This document shows, piece by piece, positions 2,172-57,600 of a DNA stretch of 64,000 bases. The stretch is from a virus, in the IMG/VR virus record IMGVR_UViG_3300020385_000008, positions 33,657 to 97,656 of that record; one strand, written 5' to 3'. The position numbers and the translations under genes are program-made. The notes below the pieces were generated by a model. The model did not search any database. It saw nothing but the letters and a program-made list of their open reading frames with translations, and had not been told where the DNA came from. Positions within the stretch are counted from its first letter, which is position 1. Every line of letters begins with the position of its first letter.

Positions 2172-3118
2172 TGGAAGTCACATTCAATCATAATTTCAGT
2201 TAGGGCAGCTAGGAGGTTAATCTCCTGGTCAGCAACAAAGCTACTTTGATATTGATATTTCGCAATAATAAGAACAGCAGCAGCTATAGATGGTCCTTGA
2301 AGGTGGGAATACAAAGCATCATATACTTTACGGAGAATGGCATTTGTATCGTTGTCTAGGTTAGAAACAACCCACTTACGGACTTCAGTAAAGTTACTTG
2401 ACTTTAGGTCACGCATAAGATCCTCAACCTTGATCTCGGAGAATGAAGCGAGAATACCAGAGTCAATCTTACCGCCAGAAGAATAACGCTGAACCTCATT
2501 GAGGACACGACGGAAGTCTGGGAAGTGCTTTTGGACTAGCTCGGCTAGAACTTTAGGCTCTGCTTCAATACGTTCCTGCTCTAAGATGCCTGTAAGGCGC
2601 TTGAAGAAGGATGCTGCTACCTGCTGCTTGTCTTTACCCTTGAGGCTAAACTCAACGACAGCACAGCGGCTGTGGAGGGGCTCAATGATCTTGTTCTTGT
2701 AGTTACAAGTAAAGATGAAACGGCAGTTCTTATAGAACGCTTCCATATTTGCTCGGAGAAGAAGCTGAACATCGTTGCCAGTATTGTCTGCCTCATCGAT
2801 GATGATGACCTTATGCTTGGCTTCACTAGTCAAAGACATAGTAGAAGCAAAGTTCTTTGCCTGATTACGGACAGTATCAAGGAAACGACCTTCATCAGAT
2901 CCATTGATCACATAATAGTCAGCACCAATCTCATTGCATAGAGCTTTTGCAATAGTAGTCTTACCCACACCAGGAGGACCTGCGAGTAGTAGGTTAGGGA
3001 TTTCACCCTTCTCCACAAACTCTTTAAAGGTTGCCTTGATGTGATCGGGTAAGATACAGTCGTCAATTTTCTGTGGGCGATATTTTTCTGTGAATAGAAA
3101 GTCGGTGCGCTCACTCAT
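2168..3118 (-). CDS. 44: Clamp loader ATPase large subunit gp44
   Basis: This is an AAA+ ATPase of 316 residues, close to the 319 of T4 gp44. It works with gp62 to open and load the gp45 clamp. Walker A GPPGVGKT lies at residues 47-54, Walker B IIIDEAD at 105-111, a sensor-1 TCN at 137-139, and the SRC arginine-finger motif at 150-152. The C-terminal collar domain follows. It opens the operon gp44, glutaredoxin-like, Sm-like, unknown, gp62, regA. The start has no clear Shine-Dalgarno; it is preceded by a T-rich TTTTTATT leader like several other starts in this genome. Confidence 0.97.
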   Translation of the reverse strand: MSERTDFLFTEKYRPQKIDDCILPDHIKATFKEFVEKGEIPNLLLAGPPGVGKTTIAKALCNEIGADYYVINGSDEGRFLDTVRNQAKNFASTMSLTSEAKHKVIIIDEADNTGNDVQLLLRANMEAFYKNCRFIFTCNYKNKIIEPLHSRCAVVEFSLKGKDKQQVAASFFKRLTGILEQERIEAEPKVLAELVQKHFPDFRRVLNEVQRYSSGGKIDSGILASFSEIKVEDLMRDLKSSNFTEVRKWVVSNLDNDTNAILRKVYDALYSHLQGPSIAAAVLIIAKYQYQSSFVADQEINLLAALTEIMIECDFQ

Positions 3119-7090: not shown

Positions 7091-8182
7091 TTACTCAATA
7101 ATTTGATACGCACTATTATTGAACCAACTATACCCATATCTACGTTCCCGCTTAACCTCTTCAATGCTATAAACAATATCATATTCCCTGTTGGCAAAAA
7201 TAGGTTTTAGACTATCCAACTCATAGAAACGTGCCCACTGACCATCTCCATCAGGATCACCCTGACCCTCAGGCAATTTTAAACTATAAATGAATTCAAT
7301 AGCAGATAACCAGGACTCGCGAACTTCTTTATCTTCTGGATAATAATCTAAATGATTTTTAAGTAAATTTATTACTTTCACACTCTCAGAAGTAGCATAA
7401 GAAGGCATTTCATAACTACGAGCCCAGGTTGGTTCAAGTGTATCGTGGTCATGTTGCTGACCCCAAATAGCTTTTTTTCCTTCGTGCTTAATCTGAGTAG
7501 ATAATATACAATCAATACCTTTCCTATAAACTGTTTCCAAATCCAATTCTTCTGAGATGTCTTCTAGATAAGTATATCTCCCATATTTATTTTTTTGAAT
7601 TGAAAGGAGTAGATTGAGAACACCAGGAATTACATTATCATTATAAGTAATATGTCTATGATTTTTATTTTCCCAAGAGCCATTTGGATGCTGGGACTTA
7701 ACAATAAAACGCAGAGCTTTTTTTATAGCATCAAGTATTACTTCATCTGCGGTTAGATCATATACACGAGACAGATATTCAATATGTCCCCAGGTGCAGC
7801 CATTATCAAAATCACTTCCATCCCTTTCATAGTCTGAGTTGGATGGTTGCTCATATATTTTCTGTAGTTGGCTTTTGCTATATTTATTTCTATAGTTGCC
7901 CTTTTTACTCCAACCACCATCTGGATTTTGAAAATGTAGTATGTTTTCTGCTATTTTAACAACTTCATTTTCAGAAAAAATAGCTGGTTTTGATCTATAA
8001 ATAGTACTTCGTATTCCAGTTTTGGGAAAATCAGCCTTAAGGTCAATATAATTATCTTCTAAGTATTGTCGTCTTTTGTTATAGGAGTCGTAATCAAAAT
8101 TTTTACTGAGAGGATCATCTTGTAGAACATCATCCCTCACAATACCAAGTAATTTTAGTATAAGTTGAATAAAGGCTTGCAT
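7091..8182 (-). CDS. Pectate lyase-like protein (polysaccharide lyase family 10 type)
   Basis: The 363-residue protein has the alpha/alpha-toroid signatures of family 10 pectate lyases: NPDGGWSKK (86-94), [16 protein letters not shown] (126-141), QHPNGSWEN (164-172), [20 protein letters not shown] (176-195), and the catalytic block [11 protein letters not shown] (248-258). By alignment from memory with characterised Pel10 enzymes, Asp126 and Asp182 would be calcium ligands and Arg255 the base, all retained. It would cleave polygalacturonate or a similar uronic polysaccharide. I chose the ATG at 8180-8182 because an upstream extension would run through the gp45 terminator. There is no clear signal peptide. 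It lies between gp45 and psbA. Confidence 0.75.
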
Positions 8183-18136: not shown

Positions 18137-19188
18137 ACTTCACAGGCTTCCATATAAATTTCAGATAATAGTGATTTAATAGAATTCTTATCCAGTGAGC
18201 TCTCATCAAAGTCAGCTTCATCAACATAACGGTTTAAGATTGATAAGGTATTCTCTTCAGCATCACTAGCATCAAAGTCCTCTGTTTCTTGTACGTTGAA
18301 GTTCTCAACGACCTTCATATCAATCAGACCAACGTTGAATAGCTTGTCTAGGAACTTATCAAAGTCTTTCTGTTTGGTCTTCTTACGAACAACAACCTTA
18401 ACAATCTTACCCCGGTATGCGGTAGCATTGAATAATTGATGCTTTGTATCTTCATAATATACGATTGAGAATAGTGTGTTTGGATTGTTTACATACTCAA
18501 TCTCACCTGTCTCGGTATCAAATAGAACAAAACCACGAGTATCATTAACATCATTCCAATACATCTCATAGGGATTACCCATATAAAAGATCTTACCGTC
18601 ATCAGAACGTGTATGGAAGTGACCTGATAAAACTTTTTCAAACTTACTAAACTCAGAAGGCTTTACTAGCCCCTTATCATCCTCAAACTTATGACCGCGA
18701 TATGCCTCAAAACCACCGAGTTCTAGATGACCCATAGCATACTTTGCTTCACTATTGGTAATCATTTCCTTGGTTCTAGTAAGATTCTCGTCACATATCC
18801 AAGGCAACATTAGAATCTTTTCGCCATCTACTGTAATTTCAGTGGGATCTGAGTAGGTTTTTACATTCCCATAATCTTGTAGAAGAAGATCAGGGGAGTT
18901 GGTCCTATTCGTTGACTTGAAATAACAGTCGTGGTTTCCTACAACCATATGAACGTCAAAGTCTTTCATTGGATCAAAGACTACACGCTTGGTCCACTGT
19001 AAGGAATTGTATTCAATAGATTTTCTACTATCAAAAGCATCACCCAAGTGAAGGATAGTCTTTACACCACGAGCTTTTAGTGTAGGGAAGAATACTTCTG
19101 AGTAGAACTTCTCAAAATGGGCGTGTAGATAGTCAGCACCTTTACGTGCCCCAAAATGTGTATCCGTAATAATAGCAACTAAACTCAT
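18133..19188 (-). CDS. 47: Recombination endonuclease subunit gp47 (Mre11/SbcD-like)
   Basis: The 351-residue metallophosphoesterase carries the five Mre11 motifs: DTHFGAR (9-15), GDAFDSRK (49-56), GNHDCY (84-89), a GHLEL, and GHFHTRS in the second third. T4 gp47 has 339 residues. It is the nuclease partner of gp46. It overlaps gp55 upstream and the DUF3110 gene downstream by four bases each, forming the gp55-gp47-DUF3110 operon. Confidence 0.97.
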   Translation of the reverse strand: MSLVAIITDTHFGARKGADYLHAHFEKFYSEVFFPTLKARGVKTILHLGDAFDSRKSIEYNSLQWTKRVVFDPMKDFDVHMVVGNHDCYFKSTNRTNSPDLLLQDYGNVKTYSDPTEITVDGEKILMLPWICDENLTRTKEMITNSEAKYAMGHLELGGFEAYRGHKFEDDKGLVKPSEFSKFEKVLSGHFHTRSDDGKIFYMGNPYEMYWNDVNDTRGFVLFDTETGEIEYVNNPNTLFSIVYYEDTKHQLFNATAYRGKIVKVVVRKKTKQKDFDKFLDKLFNVGLIDMKVVENFNVQETEDFDASDAEENTLSILNRYVDEADFDESSLDKNSIKSLLSEIYMEACEV

Positions 19189-19661
19189 GAGTTAAGCTTG
19201 GTAATGATGTTTTCTTTGATTGCGTTGTAATCGTTACGATATTCGTTGGTTAGATTAGCATCAGAAGTCATTAGGGCTTCAAATCCACTCTTCTCTACAA
19301 TCTTAGTTTTAATATCAAGCTGTCTCTTCTCTCTCTGAATACGGCGTAGGAATGCAAAGTAACTAATTTGAGTGAAGTATGCGAATGGGTTCTTTGACTT
19401 AGCTGGGTCAAAGTTATGAATGTACTGTACGCAGTTCTCAATACCATCGGAGATCATATCCTCGCGGTACATATAGTTTACGAAGTTGGACTTATAGCTG
19501 AGATGGGTAGCAATCTTGAGAAAGCAAGATCCAATGTAATTGGTAATTCGTGGTTTGGGAAGATCTTTAGCAGCAGCTTCAGCTACGCTCTCTCGGTACT
19601 CAATGAGAGCATCAAGAAAGTCTCTATTATTAACGTAATGTTCTGTTTTCGCTTTAGGCAT
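19185..19661 (-). CDS. 55: Late-transcription sigma factor gp55
   Basis: The 158-residue protein matches T4 gp55 (185 residues), a minimal sigma factor that directs RNA polymerase to TATAAATA promoters with help from gp45. The segment YMYREDMISDGIENCVQYIHNFDP with AYFTQISYFAFLRRIQREKRQ is the sigma region 2 core. It reads the late elements listed throughout this window. It leads the gp55-gp47 operon behind a GTGC-TATAAT element at 19685. Confidence 0.95.
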   Translation of the reverse strand: MPKAKTEHYVNNRDFLDALIEYRESVAEAAAKDLPKPRITNYIGSCFLKIATHLSYKSNFVNYMYREDMISDGIENCVQYIHNFDPAKSKNPFAYFTQISYFAFLRRIQREKRQLDIKTKIVEKSGFEALMTSDANLTNEYRNDYNAIKENIITKLNS

Positions 19662-19684
19662 AGCACTTCTACTGCTTTAGGTAC

Positions 19685-19694
19685 ATTATAGCAC
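19685..19694 (-). promoter_or_regulatory. Putative promoter -10 for the gp55 operon
   Basis: CTGTGCTATAATG on the minus strand, about 25 bases above the gp55 start. It stands just below the inverted-repeat element at 19711-19798. Confidence 0.6.
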
Positions 19695-19710
19695 AGAATA
19701 CATGTAATTG

Positions 19711-19798
19711 CTTAAAGACTTGACAAGGGTCTCAAAATGGAGTACAATCAGCCTTGTCGGGGGTGATAAGTCACTTTAAGTACTTAAGAGTCTTTAAG
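19711..19798. other. Nested inverted-repeat element in the gp55 upstream region
   Basis: The outer arms CTTAAAGACT (19711-19720) and AGTCTTTAAG (19789-19798) are perfect 10-base inverted repeats. Inside are a perfect 7-base pair GACAAGG (19722-19728)/CCTTGTC (19752-19758) and a 12-base palindrome TTAAGTACTTAA (about 19775-19786). The whole could fold into a branched RNA on either strand. It overlaps the end of the Sm-like gene and fills the gap before gp55. It is not a tRNA: no T-arm GTTC or anticodon arm can be placed. Either a structured leader or a small RNA gene is possible. Confidence 0.55.
19720..19748 (+). promoter_or_regulatory. Sigma-70 promoter-like sequence on the opposite strand
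   Basis: The plus strand carries a perfect TTGACA (19720-19725), a 17-base spacer and TACAAT (19743-19748). It would start a transcript near 19755 running against the Sm-like gene and uvsW. It lies within the inverted-repeat element, so the match may be a by-product of that structure. Confidence 0.4.
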
Positions 19799-20207
19799 GT
19801 TTTTCATATGAATCTATATCTTTATAGAGTTTTTCTAGAGTAGTCTTAACTTCATTTACATTACCAACGTAACCAATTTTAGAACTAGAGTTACTATATC
19901 TTTCTGGTTTAGAATATAATTTAAGTTTTCTTTTAAAGAATGTTGAATAATCATTTAATATATCAACATCACTAATTTTATATACCGTTAGTATTTTAGT
20001 AATATCTATAACGTGTAATGTATCATTTTTAATGCATAACCAAGGTTCTAATGCATATTTTTTAGGTTTTCTTCTATCCCGTAACACAACTCTTACTGGA
20101 TCCTTAAAAGAAAGAACAGTGTATCCACTGTCATCTTCTAATTTTACTAGTGTGCATACAATTTCTTCACCAGATACTAACTTAATAGCTGCTATTTTGT
20201 CGCCCAT
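19794..20207 (-). CDS. Second Sm-like protein
   Basis: The first 45 residues (IKLVSGEEIVCTLVKLED then YTVLSFKDPVRVVL) match the strand pattern and (S)GE(D/E)(V/I) signature of the Sm-like protein encoded at 1627-1920. The rest of the 137-residue chain is an extra, Lys- and Tyr-rich extension not found in the shorter paralogue. An RNA-binding role is inferred from the fold only. It follows uvsW by five bases and ends inside the inverted-repeat element before gp55. Confidence 0.65.
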   Translation of the reverse strand: MGDKIAAIKLVSGEEIVCTLVKLEDDSGYTVLSFKDPVRVVLRDRRKPKKYALEPWLCIKNDTLHVIDITKILTVYKISDVDILNDYSTFFKRKLKLYSKPERYSNSSSKIGYVGNVNEVKTTLEKLYKDIDSYEKP

Positions 20208-20212
20208 TGGGT

Positions 20213-21673
20213 TTACCTTAGATTAATGTTTATTATGTCATAATTGAATTTTTCTTCATTATATGTCTTAATACGCTCAATCAAATGATTAAGTGTGTAA
20301 TTTTTATTACTATTTTTCGTTGTATCGTCAGCTATATCATATAGCATAGCTTTTGATTTGTTAGACCCTTTCCTAAGTACACGACCTATACTTTGTAAAT
20401 TTCTGATACGTGATTTTGACGGGGAAGCAAATATAACATTATGTAGATTTTTTATGTTAATTCCAGTACTGAATACACCATAGGAAGCGATAATAATCGC
20501 ATTATCTTCCCTTTCTGTGATTTCGCGTACTTGTTCTCTTTCTTCTACATCAACGCCGCCATGTACAAAGAATACGTGGCGCCCCTCTTCCTTCTTACTA
20601 TTTATAAGATCATTAAGTATTTTTCCGTGATTTTCTACTCTTGTAAACAAAACCAACGTATTTCCTGTAATGCCCAATGCTAGATTGCTGATAAATTTGT
20701 TTCTTTTCTCGTGACTAATGAGATATTGAATCTCATCCTCATACTTATTAAACTTTTGCTCATCATGTTTTAATAATAAAACTTTAATATCAAGTTTAGC
20801 TACGTGACCAGCTTCCATTAGCTCCTTTGTTCTAATGGTGTTATATGCTGGACCAAATAGTCCTTCCAGTACAAGCTTATTTGTTTGGGTGCCATCAAGA
20901 GTACCTGTGAAACCAAAACGATACTTTGCGTCACATAGCTTAGTCATAATGCTGACTAGACTTTTTGATTTAAAGTTATGTGCTTCATCACCAATAACCA
21001 CATTAAACTTTTGAAAAAATGGTTTAGGTAATTTGTAGACAGACTGCCAAGTAGTAATAGTAACTTGCTTATCACTATGTAACTCCTTACCACCATAAAT
21101 TTTATGACAGTAAGAACCTACGTCAAATCCATAATCCTCAAAATCTTTATACATCTGTTCTACAAGAGATGTAGTAGGGACTACAATAAGAATGTTCTCA
21201 TTGCGTTGAGCATAGTATGCCACTAGGGCATAGATCATTAGAGATTTACCAGACGCAGTTGGAGAAACGATAAGTTTCCTATTTGATTTGAGAGCGGTAT
21301 AGATCCCGTGGAGCTGATAATCTCTGGGCTTATATGAAGTAATGGATTTAACCCAATCAGTAACACCCATAGGTGAGATCTCTTCATTTTCTTCATAGGG
21401 TAAGCCATAAAACTTATTGTCCCTGAATTCATATGTGTAACCATACTGATCACAAAAAGCAATAACACGATCTAGCAACCCAACATAGATCTGTTTAGTT
21501 TGAGGAGAAAATAAATTAATCGTTCCATCCCAATGTCTTTTGCGGAATGATGGATGAAACTTTGCCCCTGGAACTTCAAATGAGAAAGCGTCACGCAGCT
21601 CATATTGAATATGTGGTTCACAATCAATTTGAAGAAACACCTCGTTCTTCTTGCTGATAATCAAGTCGGTCAT
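20213..21673 (-). CDS. uvsW: UvsW DNA/RNA helicase
   Basis: The 486-residue superfamily 2 helicase has Walker A SPTASGKS (137-144), DEAH (229-232), and a later SIGRVLRKG motif VI. T4 UvsW (503 residues) unwinds R-loops and branched DNA and shifts replication from origins to recombination intermediates. The N-terminal HIQYELRDAFSFEVPGAKFHP region is the double-stranded-DNA-binding domain of UvsW. It sits with uvsY and the gp46/47 nuclease genes, as in other T4-like cyanophages. Confidence 0.95.
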   Translation of the reverse strand: MTDLIISKKNEVFLQIDCEPHIQYELRDAFSFEVPGAKFHPSFRKRHWDGTINLFSPQTKQIYVGLLDRVIAFCDQYGYTYEFRDNKFYGLPYEENEEISPMGVTDWVKSITSYKPRDYQLHGIYTALKSNRKLIVSPTASGKSLMIYALVAYYAQRNENILIVVPTTSLVEQMYKDFEDYGFDVGSYCHKIYGGKELHSDKQVTITTWQSVYKLPKPFFQKFNVVIGDEAHNFKSKSLVSIMTKLCDAKYRFGFTGTLDGTQTNKLVLEGLFGPAYNTIRTKELMEAGHVAKLDIKVLLLKHDEQKFNKYEDEIQYLISHEKRNKFISNLALGITGNTLVLFTRVENHGKILNDLINSKKEEGRHVFFVHGGVDVEEREQVREITEREDNAIIIASYGVFSTGINIKNLHNVIFASPSKSRIRNLQSIGRVLRKGSNKSKAMLYDIADDTTKNSNKNYTLNHLIERIKTYNEEKFNYDIININLR

Positions 21674-33620: not shown

Positions 33621-33698
33621 TTACCTGGATAATTTAATAATATTTAGAATAAAGATGAATGCGAATAGAAAGGCAGCGCTTTCGTAGAAATGACCCAT
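33621..33698 (-). CDS. Possible mini membrane protein (25 residues)
   Basis: A short frame encodes MGHFYESAAFLFAFIFILN and six more residues (IIKLSR), a single hydrophobic helix with a basic end. It ends five bases before the repeat protein starts. The ATG lacks a Shine-Dalgarno, so coding is suggested only by the hydrophobic pattern and the tight fit in the gap. Confidence 0.4.
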   Translation of the reverse strand: MGHFYESAAFLFAFIFILNIIKLSR

Positions 33699-54600: not shown

Positions 54601-57600
54601 TTCTTCTACAACCAAATCAGTTTCCTGAACTACTCCATTATCAATTAAGGAGAGTCTTTCCCCCTCAATGAATACCGCAGTAGTTTGATTGACTTGGAAT
54701 ATTGGATATATCTTTTTATTGACAATTGAAGAGAATGCGTTTTGGAAGGTAGCGGCAACTCCAACATTAGTGTCAGGATACTGAACTCTAATAACAACGG
54801 GATTAGTAGCCTGAACAGCAACAACATCAAAGAACGTATATCCATACTCCGATGAATTCATATTTGTGTCTTGCACTGCTGTGTTGATAGCAAAAATATT
54901 TTCAATGAATACCTTATCACCAACCTCAAATGGCGCATCAAGATATCCCGCAATTGGGGTCTGCATCAAATAATCAACAAAACCAGTTCCCTGATTAGCA
55001 ACCTGATTTATGATTTGTAAAATTGGTACGCCATTACTATTATTTGTAGTAAAGAATTCGTGGGAATTTTTAGATAGACCAGATGGAGCAACATCTATTT
55101 CAACGTCAACAACTTTGGATGATTGTGTTTGAACAAAAATTGAACCGCTGTTAATAACATCTCTCGTTACAGAGTCAATTAGAACACCGTCTGGATCAGA
55201 CTGGTATCCAATACCACCATTCAAAACTTCAATACTAGTAATAAAATCAGAATCTGTAAATTCAATACTAGGCTGAACGATACCCTTTGGTCTTATCGTT
55301 CTATCAGCAGAGTATGCCCAACCTGGGTTCTGAATTCTAAAAGAAGAAACTTCTCCAATATTACTAGATGATGCTCTCAACGAAGCATTGGTTCCAGTTG
55401 GACTTTGAATTGTTATAAACTCTGGTAGAGTATCAAAGTTTTTGCCAGACGAAATAATCCTAATGGTACCAACAGGTCCAGTAGTATTAATGGATGATGT
55501 TAAATACTTTAAATTAGCTTGGGATGGAAGATACTTACTAACTTCAGGTCTCTGGGGAAGTGATAATGAGAATACCGAGTCCCCTTCTACAGTAACAGTT
55601 CCCCTAATGCTATAAGTACTATTCACATAACTAATTGAGTTATATGAAATGGCGTTAGTATCTGCAGTGGAAATGTATCCTCCAGACTCAAGACCATAAT
55701 AGATAACACCAGGATTGTTAGTAGAATATCTAATATTTTTCTCGCCATCAGGAAATCCTTCGGTAGAAATACCACTAACAACAAACACCCTGTCAATACT
55801 GTTGTTTTCAAAAACTTCAGTTAGTGATTGATCATAAAAGAATTTTAACTCTTTACCAAATAATGTGGGTGATGACACATCAAAGTTGATGTCATGGTTA
55901 CTGATGATATTGAGTTCTGGATTTACTTTGGCAAATACTTGATTACCTACGCCCTGCGAATTTAATTCGATTGGATTTTCAGAACCAATTTTAGTATCAA
56001 TTTCAGTTTGGGCAACGTAGAATCTGTCAGAATCAAATGGAATTACAAAGTACTTACCATTATTGGTTAACCCAGAAATAACAGTGTCAGCAGCAGTGTA
56101 GAGAATATAATCAGCAAGAATATATCCGTGATTTTCAATAGTAATTAGATTTAGTGATGTATCAACATCTGCAGGAAGAGCTATCTCAGGATCAATTATT
56201 AGAGACTGTGATACCTCATTAAATTCAACTACAATAGAAGAGTTTGATCCAATGCCAGCAGGACCAAAAGGAATTACACTCACATCTACAGCATCTCCAT
56301 TCTCTAGTTGATGGGGTTCTATAGTCGTAATATTAGATCTAATTCTATCAAGGTTAGCTGTTTCAGCAAATCTATCAGTGATGATATTATAGCGGAAAAG
56401 ATCACTACCATCAGAAAGAATAACTAAATCCTCTTCTTCTGGACTAAACCTAAGTCCAATCAAATCTTTTGATACATTATGAACATATAAAGTTTCTTCA
56501 TCACCAATCTGTGGAATAATTTGAATGTTACCTGCATTATCCCTAACTTGAATAGGTGCCCCAAGTGCTGGCTTAATAAAAGTAACTTTTTCTAAGTTTC
56601 TAAACTGATGTGAAGGTGCGTAGATAGAAGCAGCAGGAATAGAAATTTCATAATTAATATTACCAATTGAATAGATTCTTTCTGTTGTTTCCCCTAACTC
56701 ACTAGCAGTACTAAACGTCTGCCTTGGATTGAAGAAGTAATCTTCATTCAACTCAGATTCAAACTCATCGGTTCTTACATCAATATCAAAGAAATTTTTG
56801 ATAGGGAATACTCTTGCTCCAATAGGAGCAACAGTTGATGTTGCTTGTGATCTATAAACTCTAAGAGCTTTATTTATGGGGAAAATATTTAATACGCTTA
56901 CTTCCTCAATATCATTACCACTTCCAATAGTCAAAGAAGAACCAACGCTGACATTTGATGAAATATAATTTACGAAAATGTCTATCGCACCTTCAGAAAC
57001 AGCTGCTGGAACTGGATTATAAAGACTCATTGACGTATTGTCAATACTAACAATACGTGAGCCGCCAATAACGGAAGTGAACGTAGTTAGACCACTAATG
57101 ATAACAGAGTCGCCCTCGCGATAGGCGTGAACAGGATCAACATAAATGCGAACAGTACTTTGATCAACTCTAATAACTTTTGTTACTAATTTACTATATG
57201 ACAAAGTATCTTCGTCAATAGTTGATATACCAAACCCAACTACCTGACTAACAATAGAACTGACAGAATCTTCACTACTATCAAAGATAGGAATATCACC
57301 AACACCGTAACTATTTCCAGCACCAACAATAGCAATGCCATCAATCTCACCAGGAGAAATTGATTCAACAATCTGGTCTTGAGTGTCAAACAAATATGAT
57401 TGAACTAAGAATTCACTACCAGCGAATGGGCTACCCACATAATACGGGAAAGTATTTCTAAAGATTGGCTTATCATTAACATCAAAGTCTTGATCAATAT
57501 TAGTACTTGAAGGTTCAATAGCAGAGTCTCTGAATTCTGGACCAATGAAGTATGGGAATTGTGGTTCTCTGGCACTTGACTGCTGATCAGCGGCGATACC

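Follow-up and report, generated by a model that had tools for sequence, protein, structure and literature searches.

Why should a phage carry a near-consensus host promoter pointing against all of the genes that surround it? The question is raised by a stretch of 64,000 nucleotides (nt), hereafter the window, taken from IMG/VR virus record IMGVR_UViG_3300020385_000008 (positions 33,657 to 97,656). The genome is that of a T4-like cyanophage, a near relative of Synechococcus phage S-CAM7, and the promoter lies in the gap between gp55, encoding the late sigma factor, and a gene for an Sm-like protein, beyond which lies the helicase gene uvsW. A first reading of the sequence (the original prediction) had described nested inverted repeats and an opposite-strand sigma-70 promoter in this gap, and had suggested a small-RNA gene, an antisense regulator of the Sm-like gene and uvsW, or a structured leader controlling gp55. 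All of the sequence features that it listed are present in the window at the predicted positions (Table 1). By comparison with related phages, it is the opposite-strand promoter that selection keeps, and not the nested fold.

The promoter reads TTGACA and TACAAT with a 17-nt spacer, and is the sole 11/12 match among 18 candidates in the 17–22.5 kb region. Only two other sites in the window reach at least 11/12 with this spacing, at 57044 (-) and 14188 (-), scoring 12/12 and 11/12; the former, a perfect TTGACA-17-TATAAT, is presumably the psbA-type promoter named in the original prediction. When the gap was dinucleotide-shuffled, an 11/12 promoter with 17-nt spacing appeared on the plus strand in one of 2000 shuffles. 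Comparison covered 89 gp55 loci (80 from IMG/VR and nine from isolates; distinct loci, 76). The -35 box is exact in 84 of the 89 and the 17-nt spacer is kept in 88, while the -10 box reads TACAAT, TAGAAT, TATAAT or close to these. Information content is about 2 bits at each -35 and -10 position, whereas a large part of the spacer is variable, which argues that selection acts on a promoter. Its orientation is invariable, away from gp55 and into the Sm-like gene and uvsW, and in the loci compared these three genes always share one strand, with the promoter on the other. By box sequence, spacing and conservation, this is a host sigma-70-type promoter.

Of the 80 IMG/VR gp55 loci, essentially every one has an antisense TTGACA-17-TANAAT, as have all nine of the cultured marine cyanophages first tested (Syn9, P-SSM2, S-RIM2, S-RIM8, S-RIM44, ACG-2014b, ACG-2014f, S-PRM1 and Sf-FS3), the -35 box of ACG-2014f reading TTGCCA. 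It was additionally found in S-RSM4, S-MbCM25 and S-WAM2. A blastn search with the Syn9 gap as query gave 111 phage records, with cyanophages nearly throughout among the matches listed. Pelagibacter phages HTVC008M and Mosig have perfect 12/12 promoters, and so does Sinorhizobium phage phiM12, together with every one of the 12 phiM12-like loci; of the distinct SAR11/OM43-like gaps, 124 of 159 contained the promoter.

Immediately 3′ of the -10 box lies a hairpin with a stem of 4–6 bp and the loop TGT (or ATGT, TATGT). Its arms in relatives include AGGC[ATGT]GCCT, AACGG[TGT]CCGTT, CAGGA[ATG]TCCTG, AGACT[ATGT]AGTCT, GGTCT[ATGT]AGACC and CCGG[TATGT]CCGG. Perfect stems of at least 4 bp were counted in 62 of 163 distinct sequences, against 13.3 (standard deviation 3.4, maximum 24) after swapping of the 3′ halves; when each distinct 5′ half was represented by a single sequence, the count was 28 of 80, against 5.3 (maximum 11) by swapping. 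When selection was made on the xTGT loop only, all four pairs were Watson-Crick in 11 of 50 sequences, against 1.1 (maximum 5 in 2000 swaps). The covariation score of a hand-chosen panel of 25 sequences was 0.43 as compared to 0.16, a value that none of 500 shuffles reached. On this comparative evidence, the stem of the start-site hairpin is maintained by compensatory changes. With the normal start distance, transcription would be expected to begin at 19756, the G of TGT. Half of the stem would then lie upstream of the RNA, so the hairpin would form in the melted DNA of the open promoter and not in RNA. A sequence-specific operator was also considered, with arms that in cyanophages are near AACCCT/AGGGTT, and was dropped; the arms in SAR11, OM43-like and Sinorhizobium phages are unrelated in sequence yet still pair.

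The nested arms behave differently. They lie within the stretch given in the original prediction, although the right outer arm enters the stop codon of the Sm-like open reading frame (ORF), which ends at 19794, so that the structure is not fully intergenic. Of 300 shuffled versions of the gap, 3 gave a perfect inverted repeat of 10 bp, and the 88-mer spanning the arms folds better than shuffled sequence (z -3.6 on the plus strand, -3.4 on the minus strand), while the whole 139-nt gap gave z values of only -1.3 and -2.2. In an alignment of ten close relatives, 60% of the cells of the outer helix were paired and one pair was retained in 2 of 10. Compensatory changes, which were to be expected if the stems were conserved as RNA, did not exceed shuffling in these relatives (three double changes against 2.8). 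The inner arm pair is near-invariant and does not covary, because both of its sides are promoter or start-site sequence. It was rejected as an element in its own right, being merely the -35 region matching CCTTGTC, with a left arm that differs in sister copies of the promoter (TTGACAGGGGG, TTGACAAAGGT). Moreover, with an expected start near 19756 both left arms are upstream of it, so a plus-strand RNA could never hold the nested fold. A search of Rfam covariance models found no known RNA family in the sequence, and no tRNA either. With its outer helix unconserved and no excess of compensatory changes, the nested fold was rejected as a conserved RNA; the covarying structure at this locus is another one, the start-site hairpin.

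The gp55 gene has its own promoter, divergent from the antisense one. The extended -10 sequence TGNTATAAT, or a close variant, stands 20–36 nt ahead of the gp55 start codon in the 76 distinct loci, and in 45 of these the antisense -35 region can be read as TTGTCA at 16–18 nt from the TATAAT of gp55, so that the two promoters share one -35 region. In P-SSM2, for example, both promoters score 11/12 on opposite strands around a common -35 region. A structured leader of gp55, one of the roles originally suggested, is not supported, as the structure is separated from gp55 by this promoter and its nested arms are unconserved. Judged from these alignments, the antisense promoter, its orientation and spacing, the hairpin and the divergent gp55 promoter are kept across the T4-like phages of cyanobacteria, and less completely in those of SAR11, OM43-like and rhizobial hosts.

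Table 1. Features of the gp55-side locus, in window coordinates. The gene order, all on the minus strand, is uvsY, uvsW, Sm-like gene, gap (19662-19793), gp55, gp47.
Feature	Position	Strand	Remarks
-35 box TTGACA, opposite-strand promoter	19720..19725	+	
-10 box TACAAT, opposite-strand promoter	19743..19748	+	
Start-site hairpin CAGCCT-TGT-CGGGGGTG	19749..19765	+	one mismatch in the window genome; covaries in relatives
Conserved downstream box ATAAGTCACTTTAAGTACTTAA	19766..19787	+	common to dispersed copies; in part to Pelagibacter phage Mosig
12-base palindrome TTAAGTACTTAA	19776-19787		inside the conserved downstream box
Left outer arm	19711..19720	+	pairs with 19789-19798, 10/10; unconserved among relatives
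Left inner arm	19722..19728	+	pairs with 19752-19758, 7/7; part of -35 box and spacer
Extended -10 TGCTATAAT of gp55's own promoter	19685..19693	-	divergent from the antisense promoter; gp55 start codon follows after 23 nt
gp55, late sigma factor	19185..19661	-	
Sm-like protein gene	19794..20207	-	often annotated 'methylamine utilization'; antisense to predicted plus-strand transcript
uvsW helicase gene	20213..21673	-	farther downstream on the antisense side

The antisense promoter is probably an overlooked control or replication-start signal. The favoured explanation, in which confidence is about evenly divided, is that a strong host-type promoter antisense to uvsW and the Sm-like gene, bearing a hairpin at its start site and lying back to back with the gp55 promoter, gives rise to an untranslated antisense transcript that affects the timing of gp55, the Sm-like gene and uvsW. 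Of the roles in the original prediction, this retains the antisense regulator, which is backed as far as comparative sequence goes by an antisense promoter in practically every related phage, and leaves without support the gp55 leader and, for the gp55 copy, the small-RNA gene. Unmodified host polymerase would fire the promoter early in infection, and the product would be a long untranslated RNA antisense to the Sm-like gene and uvsW. Antisense transcription, together with polymerase competition at the overlapping divergent promoter, would hold back the Sm-like gene, uvsW and read-through into gp55 until later, and the hairpin, forming across the start site in non-template DNA when the promoter is open, would tune initiation. 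The promoter and the hairpin themselves are established by conservation, while the function is inferred.

Several points weigh against this explanation. A promoter can be conserved for other causes, such as the priming of an origin or expression of a small protein as in phiM12, and Methylophilales phage Melnitz-2 has a degenerate version only. The -35 box in the window is not common to the gp55 promoter (they are about 29 nt apart), although the polymerase footprints of the two promoters would still overlap. The hairpin of the window is imperfect, with a G-G mismatch, and the swap and covariation statistics given above ignore the relatedness of the sequences. RNAalifold returned no consensus fold on the 25-sequence mixed-register alignment, presumably because the hairpin register varies.

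The promoter and hairpin also occur elsewhere. Sister copies hold both in other contexts, some of them sense to genes, so that hairpin and promoter form one unit. S-CAM7 has four copies of this unit, Syn9 two (52741+ and 123733-), phiM12 two, and P-SSM2, Mosig and HTVC008M one each; a fixed-pattern whole-genome search allowing 3 mismatches missed even known copies because the arm sequences vary. The unit occurs in three contexts. Next to gp55 it runs antisense; elsewhere it reads in the sense direction into a GIY-YIG endonuclease gene or a small early ORF; and a third group of copies is placed between a tail gene and that for glutaredoxin. In the early-gene context the terminator of the upstream gene is often built into the spacer (AAGACCTCC...TTGACAGGGGGTCTTTTTTT). 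Beyond the window, the same genome has a second copy (locus L091; G000:C1, about 7480-7546, minus strand), which precedes small ORFs and a GIY-YIG gene of the SegE type. Its spacer holds a complete intrinsic terminator (AAGACCTCC...GGGGGTCTTTTTTT), so that terminator and promoter overlap. Copies in S-CAM7 (KU686212, about 64120 (-)) and phiM12 (KF381361, 156313 (-)) lie in large non-coding gaps of about 1 kb and 646 nt, respectively, and are directed against the flanking genes.

The copies between the tail gene and glutaredoxin have a strong intrinsic terminator about 65–75 nt after the start, and their product would be a small RNA, making each a candidate gene of about 70 nt. The terminator stems vary between phages with pairing retained, and the S-CAM7 copy folds with z -3.1. 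This candidate (L095, 1503-1610; S-CAM7 about 208267-208370, KU686213) comprises the promoter, a hairpin CUCUAAGUACUUAGAG and the strong terminator, and the same arrangement is seen in L110, L111, L115, L126, L127, L134, L136, L142, L146, L148 and L151. Two of these contigs also contain matches to the glutamine riboswitch (RF01739), at 7333-7433 (+) in L134 and 2993-3041 (-) in L115. A host origin of the unit was considered and rejected, as a pattern scan of genome contigs found scattered promoter-like matches and a phage contig binned in a metagenome-assembled genome (MAG) only. That contig, NYUL01000008.1 (L174, L175), is filed as a Gammaproteobacteria MAG and carries phage copies of the unit, being a phage contig binned with a bacterium; it is equal in length to IMG/VR virus contig 2778260978_000004.

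The main rival to antisense control, itself rather unlikely, is a replication origin of the T4 oriF [ori(uvsY)] type, at which an untranslated RNA would stay as an R-loop in an AT-rich stretch and prime the leading strand, UvsW later removing the R-loop. The promoter is strong, uvsW is encoded next door, and a non-template-strand hairpin would favour an open bubble. Essentially no intrinsic terminator was found on the antisense strand within 900 nt in 91 gp55 loci, a lack that also suits antisense control, since the transcript would extend deep into the Sm-like gene and uvsW. In the window genome the first 400 nt downstream have a guanine-plus-cytosine (GC) content of 28.0% compared to 39.0% for the genome, which is at the bottom of the genome distribution; the same holds for S-CAM7, and GC is also low in P-SSM2 and phiM12. 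However, this AT-richness is not general. Across 48 cyanophage loci the difference from neighbouring sequence is slight (30.7 vs 32.3% GC), and in Mosig and HTVC008M the downstream stretch is not AT-richer at all. GC skew does not change at the site, which is weak evidence against an origin, and the several unit copies in S-CAM7, some heading protein genes, also speak against one. Ranking below an origin in probability, and so unlikely too, is a small-RNA gene, whose short trans-acting regulatory product would have the conserved 5′ stretch GUCGAGGUUGAUAAGACACU as its active part. This stretch is common to all classes of copy in the window clade, and the terminated sister copies beside glutaredoxin do look like small-RNA genes, but the gp55 copy is without such a terminator in practically any phage. 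The RNA predicted for the window folds no better than shuffles (z 0.3), no Rfam match was found, and the 5′ stretch is not retained outside the clade.

It is quite improbable that the site is a remnant or cryptic promoter belonging to a small gene in divergent orientation. The model for this is phiM12, in which an ORF of 50 amino acids is annotated on the same strand downstream of the promoter, and the unit does precede early genes in Syn9 and in other copies. In the cyanophages, however, no ORF of this kind was seen, and near-perfect conservation of a promoter without a gene argues against a relic. The good folding of the minus-strand 88-mer would fit a sense-strand mRNA leader or terminator, in which read-through from uvsW and the Sm-like gene into gp55 makes use of the nested fold, but such a role is very improbable. 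The outer helix is unconserved, the gp55 promoter comes after the fold, no T run is present, and at other loci too the hairpin accompanies the plus-strand promoter; the pattern of conservation already contradicts this alternative.

A broader, tentative proposal, of low probability, is that these phages share an ancient 'hairpin-start' unit, found in marine and soil T4-like phages and consisting of a full sigma-70 consensus with a covarying non-template hairpin centred on the start, antisense to uvsW and the Sm-like gene and back to back with the late sigma gene. Acting as a switch or a primer, the unit would tie early transcription by host polymerase to the firing of an origin and to the start of late transcription.

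Among known systems, the virion RNA polymerase promoters of phage N4 are short-stem hairpins with a 3-nt loop, located upstream of the start and read by a phage polymerase. The gp55-side promoter likewise has a short stem with a 3-nt loop, but differs in its host-type -35 and -10 boxes and in the position of the hairpin over the start. For a sigma-70 promoter, a covarying hairpin that coincides exactly with the start site would be an uncommon design. To our knowledge, T4-like cyanophages and pelagiphages lack the T4 middle-transcription regulators MotA and AsiA. For Syn9, Doron et al. in 2016 reportedly described early genes controlled by a novel element and middle genes with host-like promoters; these elements may or may not overlap with the two unit copies of Syn9. 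A literature search found no description of the gp55-side antisense promoter or hairpin, although the Syn9 study could still contain one.

Sigma-70-type early promoters are to be expected in such phages, and an antisense RNA in a cyanophage is already known. This is cfrI of S-PM2, a non-coding RNA antisense to psbA and a homing endonuclease, the expression of which has been demonstrated (Millard et al. 2010, as described in PMC5931967 and PMC2984593). Like the RNA predicted here, cfrI is non-coding, antisense and encoded by a T4-like cyanophage. It differs in that its expression has been shown, whereas the gp55-side promoter is at another locus, is conserved group-wide and has a predicted RNA. 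T4 oriF is an R-loop origin near the uvsY/uvsW cluster that consists of a promoter and a downstream AT-rich stretch, with UvsW acting on such R-loops, and it uses a MotA middle promoter (PMC3016281). The gp55-side site shares the promoter and the uvsY/uvsW neighbourhood; an AT-rich stretch downstream is clear in the window and S-CAM7, and weak or absent elsewhere. It differs in having a full sigma-70 consensus instead of a MotA promoter, a start-site hairpin and an antisense direction, and its origin activity is putative. The promoter may bear on the timing of uvsW and the late sigma factor, and on the site of replication start, in cyanophages and pelagiphages. Practically all of these phages, which are abundant in the ocean, carry a full-consensus promoter that runs counter to the genes lying over it, and this provides a definite site to examine.

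Two minor observations concern the neighbouring gene and other start sites. The Sm-like gene product matches PF16243 with an E value of 3e-4, which is under the curated cut-off, and also phrog_471. Ahead of genes in S-CAM7 (160155+), Syn9 (130405+, 162105+ and 165837+), P-SSM2 (192795+) and the window genome (G000, 828-), another start-site motif, TATAAT-N3-5-AGGTAA(T/A/G)CAA, is found repeatedly; it may represent a second class of early promoter.
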